NCBI GenBank assembly: GCA_016176845.1
Contig: JACOWJ010000007.1
Location: 1 to 20,074 of the forward strand
Source: Nitrospinota bacterium
GTDB taxonomy: Bacteria > 2-12-FULL-45-22 > JACOWJ01
Reading direction: 5' to 3'
DNA length: 20,074 nt
Shown: one piece after another, positions 3,639 to 10,775 of the stretch
How the letters are laid out: each line of letters opens with the position of its first letter
Numbering within the stretch: the stretch's first letter is position 1
Notes under the pieces: model-generated
What the model saw: the letters and a program-made list of their open reading frames with translations, nothing else
The model's database searches: none
Told to the model about the DNA's origin: nothing
Made by a program: the position numbers and the translations under genes

Positions 3639-3777
3639 AGGCAGGCAGAGGAAAAGGTCTTTTATTTGTTGCCCATCCTCTTCTGGTCACCTTTGCCTTG
3701 CCCTAGCCTTCTGAAAAGGCACCTTGAAGCTCCTCGTCCGTGACGACAGGGGATGACCTTTCGCGCTCTAAAAATTA

Positions 3778-3806
3778 TTGCAAAAACATGCCATTTCTGG
3801 TATTTT
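3778..3806 (+). promoter_or_regulatory. AbiE promoter, probably leaderless, with imperfect inverted repeat
   Basis: TTGCAA (3778-3783) and TATTTT (3801-3806) are separated by exactly 17 bases. The expected transcription start falls on or next to the A of the AbiEi ATG at 3813, which implies a leaderless message. No Shine-Dalgarno sequence precedes that ATG. The stretch is an imperfect palindrome (AAAAACATGCC facing GGTATTTTTTT). AbiEi antitoxins are known to repress their own promoter by binding inverted repeats, so this may be the operator; that is inference. Confidence 0.55.
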
Positions 3807-3812
3807 TTTCGT

Positions 3813-4454
3813 ATGAAGTTCAGCCAACTGGTCGAGATGGTGGATGACGAGCCGGTATTCGAGACCGGTCTGCTGCTGGCGGGCAACCTCGACCCAGAGG
3901 ACGTGCGCCGCCAGTTGTCGCGCTGGACGCAGGCCGGCCGGATCTACCTGTTGCGACGCGGTCTGTACGCGCTGGCACCCCCGTTCCAAAAGGTGAGGCC
4001 CCATCCGTTCGTGATTGCCAATCGCCTGGCGCGCGGCTCTTACGTGAGCTGCCAGTCGGCCCTGGCTCACTACCACCTGATCCCGGAACATGTGCCGGTG
4101 GCCACCAGCGTCACGACGGGACGCCCCGGCCGTTGGGATACCCCGCTGGGCAGCTTCGAATTCCGGCACATCCAGATCGGCCTCTTGCGCGGCTATCGGC
4201 TGATGGAACTGGGAGAAAGACAGCGGGCGTTCGTGGCCACGCCGGAAAAGGCCCTGCTGGACCTGATCTATCTGCAACCCGCCGGGGACTCACCTCTCTA
4301 CCTCCACGGACTGCGTTTGCAAAATTTGGACATCCTGAACCTGGACGAACTGCGGCGGCATGCCGACCTCTCCCACAGACCCAAACTGCGACGGGCAGCA
4401 GAACGCGTGACCGCTCTGGCACGCGCTGAGGCCCTGGAATATGAGAGCCTGTGA
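3813..4454 (+). CDS. AbiEi-type antitoxin / transcriptional repressor
   Basis: This 213-residue protein is the antitoxin and autorepressor of a type IV toxin-antitoxin system. I chose ATG 3813 over the longer frame from 3753 because the family domain begins at MKFSQLVEMVDDEPVFE and the extra 20 residues would overlap the promoter. Residues 17-54 (GLLLAGNLDPEDVRRQLSRW...LLRRGLYAL) are the N-terminal winged helix. Residues about 140-160 contain ATPEKALLDLIYL, the conserved motif of the C-terminal domain. Its stop codon overlaps the toxin start as GTGA, giving translational coupling. Confidence 0.9.
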   Translation: MKFSQLVEMVDDEPVFETGLLLAGNLDPEDVRRQLSRWTQAGRIYLLRRGLYALAPPFQKVRPHPFVIANRLARGSYVSCQSALAHYHLIPEHVPVATSVTTGRPGRWDTPLGSFEFRHIQIGLLRGYRLMELGERQRAFVATPEKALLDLIYLQPAGDSPLYLHGLRLQNLDILNLDELRRHADLSHRPKLRRAAERVTALARAEALEYESL

Positions 4455-5266
4455 AGGAATATCTCACCCATTGCGTACGCGCCGCCCTCACGCCCATCCA
4501 TGGTCGCAATGTGGTCCGCGAATACCTGCAGGCCCGGATCCTGGGCACTCTCCAGCGCGCCGGGGCGATGATCCCGCTTGCCTTTCAGGGCGGCACATCG
4601 TTGCGTTTCCTGTATTTTATTCCCCGCTATTCGGAAGATCTCGACTTTACGCTCGAACGGGCCGCGTCTTCGTATGATCTCCGGGCCTACCTGTGGGCCA
4701 TTCGGGCGGAGATGGCCCCAGAGGGCTATGCCGTCGAGCTCAGGGTGAACGACAAGAAAACCGTTCACCATGCCTTCATTCGCTTTGCCGGGTTGCTACA
4801 CGAGCTGGGGCTGTCGCAACATCGGCAGGAAGCGCTCTCCATCCGGATCGAAATCGACACGAACCCACCTGCCGGTGCAGTCTTGACAACCAGCCTCGTC
4901 CGTCGCCACCATGTGACGCTCCGACTCCAGCATCACGATCGCGCCTCCCTGCTGTCCGGTAAGCTGCACGCCATCTTGTGGCGGCCTTACGCTAAAGGAA
5001 GGGACATCTACGACCTGCTCTGGTATCTCAGCGACCCGGACTGGCCGGCGCCAAACCTGACGTTGCTCAACAACGCCCTGCAGCAAACAGGCTGGAGGGA
5101 CGCCTATCTGACGGAACACACATGGAGAGGAGCTGTCTGCAAACGACTGCAAACGTTGGCCTGGGACCAACTGGTGGCTGATGTGCACCCCTTCCTCGAA
5201 CCGGGGACCGATCCTGGCCTCTTGACCCGTGAAAATGTGATGCTGGTTCTCGGGTGCGAAGCGTAA
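4451..5266 (+). CDS. AbiEii/AbiGii-family nucleotidyltransferase toxin
   Basis: This 271-residue protein starts at GTG 4451, overlapping the antitoxin stop by four bases. It has the DNA polymerase beta-like nucleotidyltransferase core: FQGGTSLRF at 45-53, SEDLDF at 61-66 (catalytic Asp63 and Asp65) and SIRIEIDTN at 130-138 (third acidic residue Asp136). These are followed by LLSGKLHAIL at 167-176 and KGRDIYDLLWYL at 182-193, hallmarks of AbiEii/AbiGii toxins. Known relatives are GTP-binding or tRNA-modifying nucleotidyltransferases that cause abortive infection or growth arrest. All expected residues are present, so it appears active. The GC-rich composition is close to its neighbours. Confidence 0.93.
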   Translation: MKEYLTHCVRAALTPIHGRNVVREYLQARILGTLQRAGAMIPLAFQGGTSLRFLYFIPRYSEDLDFTLERAASSYDLRAYLWAIRAEMAPEGYAVELRVNDKKTVHHAFIRFAGLLHELGLSQHRQEALSIRIEIDTNPPAGAVLTTSLVRRHHVTLRLQHHDRASLLSGKLHAILWRPYAKGRDIYDLLWYLSDPDWPAPNLTLLNNALQQTGWRDAYLTEHTWRGAVCKRLQTLAWDQLVADVHPFLEPGTDPGLLTRENVMLVLGCEA

Positions 5267-9155: not shown

Positions 9156-9161
9156 TCAGGC
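9128..9161 (+). repeat. 34-nt direct repeat, copy B, overlapping a stop codon
   Basis: This begins TTTCCCCGAA and ends ATGAATCAGGC. Its last bases contain the TGA stop (minus strand, 9156-9158) of the tandem-domain gene, so the repeat supplies that gene's end. Confidence 0.8.
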
Positions 9162-9938
9162 AGAGCGCCACCAGCTTTCGTGCTCGCTCTCCATCTCGGC
9201 CACAGTGGGCAGCGCGTAGAAGATCAGGTCCGAGCCGGCCGCGAACCAGAAGCCCGTATGCAGGTTGCGGTAGGAGAGCAGGGGCAAAATGCTATCGAGG
9301 CTGATGGTCTTGGTCTTCTTGTCTGGATTGTCCACCAGTGCTCGGATGCCCTCCTTGAGGTGGCCCAGGTTCACATTCGGCAACGGCGAGGAGATCTCGT
9401 ACTTCTTCGAGTGGAGCAATTCGTCGACATTGAGCTCGACCTGGGTGAAAAAGAGGCGGGGAGCCCCCTTGGTCTTAACCTCGGTGGTTAGAAACTTTCC
9501 GAAATCCGGGGGGGTCAAGTTGGATGCCACCAACACGTGGAGGGGTGCGATCTCCTGGTACACGCAGACCAGCCTGCACGGGGGCTCCTTGGGGTATTCG
9601 CGCGACCCCCGAATGCCAAGCACTTTGCCATCCACGGTAACCAGGTAGAGGTCCTTGAGCTGGTTGACGTCGATGTGCTCGAGGACGCGGTAGGAGGAGA
9701 TGAATTTGGTGCGCTTGGGCACCTTGCCGCCGTCCTTCTCGGTCCGGGCGAGTATAGCGTCGATATCGAAGTACATGTGCCGGAAATTGATATCGACCTC
9801 AGCGAAGATCACCTTGCCGCTGAAATGGCGAGGGCTGCCCACCGCATAGTGCTTGCCGAACTCCTCCGGGGTAAGCTGCGAAGCGACGAGTGCCTCATTG
9901 GGGTGAAGGATCAGATAAAGGTGCTTTTCAAAGGCCAT
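9156..9938 (-). CDS. Unrecognised protein made of two tandem copies of one domain
   Basis: The protein has 260 residues; ATG 9938 follows GAGAGG. I do not recognise the family. The two halves are clearly homologous. ALVASQLTPEEFGKHY (16-31) and VLVASNLTPPDFGKFL (135-150) correspond. KVIFAEVDINF (42-52) and RLFFTQVELNV (161-171) correspond. PKRTKFISSYRVL...LYLVTVDGKVLGI (74-109) and KKTKTISLDSILP...FWFAAGSDLIFYA (207-242) correspond. Each repeat is about 125 residues and looks alpha/beta without catalytic-type Cys/His clusters, signal peptide or membrane helices. A good promoter lies upstream (10020-10048). The C-terminal WWRSA lies partly within a repeat element, so the original end may have been replaced. 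Confidence 0.8.
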   Translation of the reverse strand: MAFEKHLYLILHPNEALVASQLTPEEFGKHYAVGSPRHFSGKVIFAEVDINFRHMYFDIDAILARTEKDGGKVPKRTKFISSYRVLEHIDVNQLKDLYLVTVDGKVLGIRGSREYPKEPPCRLVCVYQEIAPLHVLVASNLTPPDFGKFLTTEVKTKGAPRLFFTQVELNVDELLHSKKYEISSPLPNVNLGHLKEGIRALVDNPDKKTKTISLDSILPLLSYRNLHTGFWFAAGSDLIFYALPTVAEMESEHESWWRSA

Positions 9939-10142: not shown

Positions 10143-10170
10143 TTGACACATTTCATTATTCGTATACATT
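10143..10170 (+). promoter_or_regulatory. Sigma70-type promoter for the selenoprotein gene
   Basis: A perfect TTGACA (10143-10148) is followed by 16 bases and TACATT (10165-10170). The start codon lies about 45 bases further on. The overlapping GTATACAT is an alternative -10 at shorter spacing. Confidence 0.5.
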
Positions 10171-10215: not shown

Positions 10216-10437
10216 GTGGAGAAGGTCATCGTGTTTGGGAAGAAGGGCTGACATTACACCCAGGCGGCCAAAGAGGATCTCGCCAAGCGCAAGGTTGCCT
10301 TCGAGTATTACGACGTTCTCGAGGACCAAGAGGCCATGAAGCGAATGCTGGAGCTATCCCGGGGGAAACGAGAGGTTCCGGTCCTGGTCGAGGATGGAAA
10401 GGTAACATTGGGCTTTGGTGGGACCTGATCGGTATAG
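10216..10437 (+). CDS. Uxx-star glutaredoxin-like selenoprotein with two in-frame TGA (Sec) codons
   Basis: Read through TGA, this frame encodes a 73-residue thioredoxin-fold redox protein. It starts at GTG 10216 (an in-frame GTG at 10204 is possible), with AAGGGGG and GAAAGG upstream. It begins EKVIVFGKKG, then TGA at 10249 (Sec12) and HYTQAAKEDLAKR, in the place of a glutaredoxin CxxC/CxxT active site. FEYYDVLEDQEAMKRML follows, then REVPVLVEDGKVTLGFGGT, the cis-Pro strand and GG end typical of glutaredoxins. A second TGA at 10426 is followed by exactly two codons and TAG, matching the Sec-x-x-stop ending that, as I recall, names the Uxx-star family. Hairpins suited to bacterial SECIS elements follow both TGAs. 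A Cys replacement or pseudogene is less likely, since codon usage and motifs are intact throughout. Confidence 0.8.
10263..10284 (+). promoter_or_regulatory. Candidate SECIS element for the first Sec codon
   Basis: Starting 11 bases after TGA 10249-10251, GGC pairs with GCC and GAG with CTC (10273-10281) around a GAT loop, with an unpaired stretch on the 5' side. This is the position expected of a bacterial SECIS, but the fold is weaker than the second one. Confidence 0.4.
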
Positions 10438-10441
10438 CCAT

Positions 10442-10456
10442 CCGGCTGGAAGCCGG
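10442..10456 (+). promoter_or_regulatory. Candidate SECIS hairpin for the C-terminal Sec codon
   Basis: A perfect 6-bp stem, CCGGCT/AGCCGG, with a GGA loop begins 13 bases after TGA 10426-10428. Bacterial SECIS elements lie just 3' of the UGA with a small G-containing apical loop. No T-run follows, which argues against a simple terminator. The element falls mostly beyond the TAG stop, consistent with a Sec codon at the extreme C-terminus. Confidence 0.55.
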
Positions 10457-10467
10457 GGGGAGAAGTT

Positions 10468-10499
10468 AGCTCATAGCTCGTAGCTCAAAGCTCAAAGCC
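10468..10499. repeat. Word repeat of the AGCTC(A/G)TAGCTC type
   Basis: Tandem near-copies of a 7-10 base word (AGCTCAT, AGCTCGT, AGCTCAA, AGCTCAA) occur here. The same word family recurs at 14549-14595 after the cyclase gene. Confidence 0.7.
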
Positions 10500-10500
10500 G

Positions 10501-10775
10501 AAAAAGAAAATTCCTATACAATTAAATTAGGGGTTAGGGATTAGGGGCTAGTGAAGAAGAACTCTGCTAGCCCCTGGCTCCTAGCCTCTATCCCCTTAAA
10601 ATGGAAATTCCTATGCGATCAAGTTAGTATCACCCCCACCCTAACCCTCCCCCTGACCCCTTCATGGGGGGAGGGGTCAGGGGGAGGGGCACAAAAAATG
10701 GAAATTCCCTTCCAGTTAGCAGGGATCAGTTGACGGGGATCAGCGAAAGATCGCTTATCCCTGGCCCCTGGAAAC
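10501..10775. repeat. Modular array: A-rich motif alternating with inverted repeats
   Basis: Motif copies lie at 10501-10530, 10598-10627 and 10693-10719, with core TGGAAATTCC and an end like AAGTTAG. Between copies 1 and 2 is an inverted repeat of AGGGG/TTAGGG words (10529-10551 with 10567-10596). Between copies 2 and 3 is a perfect 17-bp stem (10645-10661 with 10672-10688). After copy 3 comes another stem, CAGGGAT/ATCCCTG (about 10720-10762). No gene is present in this 350-base spacer. Confidence 0.8.

Follow-up and report, generated by a model that had tools for sequence, protein, structure and literature searches.

The window analyzed here is a stretch of 20,074 nucleotides, contig C9 of a 1.53-Mb draft metagenome assembly that is 68% complete. 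At positions 10216–10437 of its plus strand lies a predicted double selenoprotein gene of the glutaredoxin-like UXX-star family 1, with a GTG start, 73 residues and a TAG stop. There are exactly two in-frame TGAs within the gene, and both are conserved in homologous loci. The first, at 10249–10251, is the putative codon for Sec12 in the active-site motif U-H-Y-T, which occupies residues 12–15 of the product. The second, at 10426–10428, is the putative codon for Sec71 close to the C-terminus, where the gene ends in TGA-TCG-GTA-TAG, read as U-S-V-stop, with TAG at 10435–10437 as the true stop. The read-through product is VEKVIVFGKKG-U-HYTQAAKEDLAKRKVAFEYYDVLEDQEAMKRMLELSRGKREVPVLVEDGKVTLGFGGT-U-SV-stop. 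We take the GTG at 10216 as the start because in the alignment it lines up with the ATG starts of relatives, which begin with MSEKV, MPEKV or MTDKV. The TTGACA promoter described earlier as intact is present as a motif on the plus strand at 10143–10170 (TTGACA-16 nt-TACATT, with 10 of 12 matches in a pattern scan), but a shuffled region would hold 0.8 such sites by chance, and we regard it as weak evidence for a possible sigma-70-type promoter.

The surroundings of the gene hold several further features. On the minus strand, a gene for a 260-residue protein without a Pfam match adjoins it at 9156–9938. The spacer on its 3′ side carries dispersed repeats (10501–10627 and 10463–10530), which begin right after the second hairpin described below; the repeated element is about 100 bp long, and about 40 further copies with 68–90% identity occur across the same genome. 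Elsewhere in the window, at 3753–5266, a 233-residue ORF that has no Pfam match lies directly upstream of a gene matching AbiEii (E 4e-27), which is the arrangement of a type IV toxin–antitoxin pair.

The 73-residue product scores 111 bits (E 2.4e-32) against the NCBIfam model NF041114, “UXX-star selenoprotein family 1”, whose cut-off is 72, and the match covers profile positions 1–70 of 70. It also matches the Pfam Glutaredoxin family (PF00462, E 2.4e-13). The two matches exclude chance as an explanation for the reading frame. The whole-model match and the homologs likewise place the gene in the Uxx-star family with its C-terminal Sec-x-x-stop, which the preliminary description had suggested. 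Its novelty was overstated there, as NCBI already curates this family. A 2026 review includes UXX-star family 1 as a family with two Sec, and its Table 1 gives NF041114 with the motif UxxT and two Sec under the heading “Predicted with high confidence” (PMC13188914). The family is also called Distant Grx-like protein 1; the review refers for it to the 2008 GOS paper, in whose main text the phrase “Distant Grx” was not found.

With this family the window gene shares the UxxT motif, the two Sec residues, the C-terminal U-x-x-stop and a length of about 73 residues. It differs in its GTG start and in having His directly after the first Sec, where Pro is usual; this substitution is also found in two other loci, L024 and L105. 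The gene is thus a clear member of an already described NCBI family, from which it departs only in family-level details. UXX-star families 2 and 3 (NF041211 and NF047338) and the HUGP/GUXX-star fusion (NF045501) have the same glutaredoxin-like domain and tail, but their matches to the product reach 57–68 bits and are all below the respective cut-offs of 100, 97 and 325 bits. Families 2 and 3 are reportedly the subject of a 2025 paper by Haft and Tolstoy. Classical selenocysteine glutaredoxins (UxxC) share the fold and likewise begin their active-site motif with Sec, but carry Cys where the window protein has Thr, have a longer C-terminus and lack the C-terminal Sec. NrdH redoxins are similar in fold (4fiw, Z 10.2; 1h75, Z 10.0), but have a CxxC motif and no Sec, and the window protein scores 30 bits against the NrdH family, for which the cut-off is 85.75.

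We assembled 46 distinct homologous loci, the window included, from two kinds of search. One set of 23 loci comes from 386 sampled genomes. The other, of 24 loci, comes from named genome contigs and includes one locus, L087, that duplicates L054. The closer relative L054 served as the query in the named-contig search, and a contig scan with the window protein alone as query gave no matches. Phylum-level searches around three genomes (G000, G049 and G059) covered one or two genomes each. The titles of the named records include Methylomirabilota, Acidobacteriota, Deltaproteobacteria, Planctomycetota, Binatia, Dehalococcoidia and Nitrospirae. At the C-terminus, 43 of the 46 loci have a TGA, two further codons and then a stop, and Cys occurs at the TGA site in none of the 46. 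The active-site codon is TGA in 36 loci and Cys in 10. One of the Cys forms, L027, comes from the same order; its active site reads CPYC and its C-terminus UTV-stop. Only L026, L064 and L065 are without the C-terminal TGA-two codons-stop; they represent a single lineage in which the family fold is retained, the active site carries Cys and the C-terminal Sec tail is missing. This pattern of conservation indicates that both Sec sites are features of the family and not errors. The preliminary description had made its reading depend on homologs with Cys or Sec at the TGA positions, and such homologs are found for both.

The second TGA is followed by a SECIS-type hairpin on the plus strand at 10441–10457 (TCCGGCT-GGA-AGCCGGG), downstream of the TAG. 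Its stem of 7 bp, its loop GGA at 10448–10450 with G as the first nucleotide, and its spacing of 19 nt from the TGA all lie within the published ranges for bacterial SECIS elements, namely a loop of 3–9 nt with G in the first two positions, a stem of 4–16 bp and a spacing of 16–37 nt (PMC13188914). Most loci have a small-loop hairpin here, often with GGU or GGUC in the loop, that starts 15–24 nt after the second TGA; L091, L100, L101 and L108 are among the few without a clear one by a simple measure of contiguous stem. In the first set the contiguous stems average 6.67 bp, compared to 3.49 bp in dinucleotide shuffles (z 8.6, 0/500), and in the second set they average 6.05 bp, compared to 3.27 bp (z 8.6, 0/500), although the loci are related by descent and the z-scores of all these hairpin tests, including those given below for the first site, overstate independence. 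The stems vary in sequence, with 33 distinct sequences among 38, and at the six inner stem positions 5.63 of 6 are paired within a locus, compared to 3.18 for arms taken from different loci, which indicates covariation. Choosing the best hairpin for each locus inflates the within-locus figure, and since the shuffles choose likewise, the shuffle test is the main control. The CCGGCT/AGCCGG stem noticed earlier is real in the window, and covarying stems occur at this place across the family. Since this hairpin lies beyond the true stop, the message would need its 3′ untranslated part. A search of the window against Rfam at gathering thresholds gave no match.

For Sec12, the candidate SECIS region lies within the coding sequence on the plus strand at 10262–10287, and could form as GGC...GAG-GAT-CTC-GCC or as AGA-GGA-TCT, with the loop near 10275–10277. 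Compared to the same bacterial SECIS model (PMC13188914), its best contiguous stem is 3 bp with the loop GGA, and a longer stem forms only with a bulge. Taken alone, the window’s first hairpin is no better than shuffles. As a group, however, the Sec forms have a mean stem of 4.50 bp at this site, compared to 2.94 bp in shuffles (z 6.9, 0/500), while the Cys forms have 2.89 bp at the same place, compared to 2.98 bp (z –0.2). Judged from its sequence, the hairpin suggested earlier for the first TGA is weak in the window, and support for it comes mainly from the family.

The machinery for Sec insertion, which the preliminary description proposed to look for, is present in the same genome. SelA (608.5 bits), selB (377.6 bits), selD (381 bits) and tRNA-Sec (70.4 bits) all score above their cut-offs, and ARAGORN assigns the anticodon TCA to the tRNA. 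The selD gene (L017, on the reverse strand of its locus at 1501–2424) has one in-frame TGA, in SHGAGUACKL, followed by a strong hairpin, and because of these two features its product is probably a selenoprotein as well. For the gene at 10216–10437, the NCBIfam match, the homologs, the SECIS-type hairpins and this machinery bear out the proposal of two Sec codons. We conclude with high confidence, from sequence comparison, that it is very probably a genuine double selenoprotein gene decoded through SelB and SECIS elements.

In a draft metagenome assembly of limited completeness, one might suspect that the gene is a decayed glutaredoxin pseudogene or that sequencing errors produced two TGAs by chance. 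Both TGAs, however, fall on the two Sec positions of the family, the frame is otherwise intact and conserved, and the complete Sec machinery is encoded in the genome. We therefore rejected this explanation, which is very improbable. That the source organism has reassigned TGA to an ordinary amino acid is less credible still: 4 of the 11 main window genes checked use TGA as an ordinary stop, which argues that the code is not reassigned, and tRNA-Sec, SelB and SelA are present. Reassignment was rejected on these grounds. It could also be that Sec is inserted at only one TGA, with the N-terminal TGA as the less certain of the two; if that one were not decoded, the product would be an 11-residue peptide. 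The weak first hairpin of the window and the Cys at the active site of 10 of the 46 relatives point in this direction, but TGA stands at exactly the active-site codon in 36 relatives, and the first-site hairpins exceed shuffles as a group where those of the Cys forms do not. If translation stopped at the first TGA, the C-terminal Sec site would also be of no use despite its conservation, nor would the hairpin that follows it, and we consider decoding of a single TGA very improbable. Decoding of both TGAs as Sec is the reading that we adopt.

An AlphaFold model of the protein with Cys in place of Sec (mean pLDDT 92.5) has a glutaredoxin fold that ends after β4, with the thioredoxin-like topology β-α-β-α-β-β and without the usual last helix. 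The best solved structures are the thioredoxin-like BC3987, cGrx1 and NrdH, with Z 10–11 over 65–67 residues; 3zij superimposes with Z 10.9 and an rmsd of 1.6 over 66 residues, and structures of both cGrx1 and cGrx2 are among the best fold matches. In glutaredoxins, the GG motif after β4 is a glutathione-binding element close to the active site. From the position of this motif, one would expect the Sec71 tail to lie close to Sec12. In the mechanism that we propose, SelB would deliver Sec-tRNA-Sec at both UGA codons, each guided by the hairpin downstream of it. Sec12, which heads helix 1, would serve as the nucleophile of the active site, and a three-residue tail after the GG motif would present Sec71. 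The two could then act jointly. They might form and open a diselenide reversibly during thiol/selenol exchange, in line with the diselenide-type enzyme proposed in the preliminary description, or they might be a ligand pair for a soft metal or metalloid; we hold such joint action to be possible, at a little under an even chance. The review proposes, as a possible role for the Sec of UXX-star proteins, the binding of metals or of unknown substrates (PMC13188914). The sites and hairpins themselves argue for Sec insertion and not for any function.

The gene neighborhoods, compared within 4–9 kb of the homologs, contain no conserved arrangement that hints at a substrate. No neighbor is common with the window apart from one at L097, a distant alcohol dehydrogenase match to a window neighbor with 29% identity. 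Genes that by eye resemble aldehyde ferredoxin oxidoreductase lie within about 5 kb of the UXX-star genes in five loci (L068, L074, L076, L077 and L106), and a ferredoxin-like gene, also named by eye, is nearby in four of these.

The interest of the finding lies less in the window copy than in what the family as a whole does. In UXX-star family 1 an active-site Sec is combined with another Sec placed two residues ahead of the stop, and the SECIS element of the latter extends beyond the coding sequence or lies wholly outside it. The C-terminal Sec is retained in nearly all loci, while the active-site Sec is replaced by Cys in some, and from this we tentatively suggest that the C-terminal Sec, and not the active-site one, may be essential in the family, perhaps as part of a diselenide, a selenylsulfide or a soft-metal pair acting on some substrate; this is a possibility to which we give rather less than even weight. 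Such genes are overlooked or cut short when gene callers lack Sec-aware models, and every well-supported example therefore aids annotation. The alignment and the covarying hairpins offer a ready basis for a biochemical test of the role of the family.
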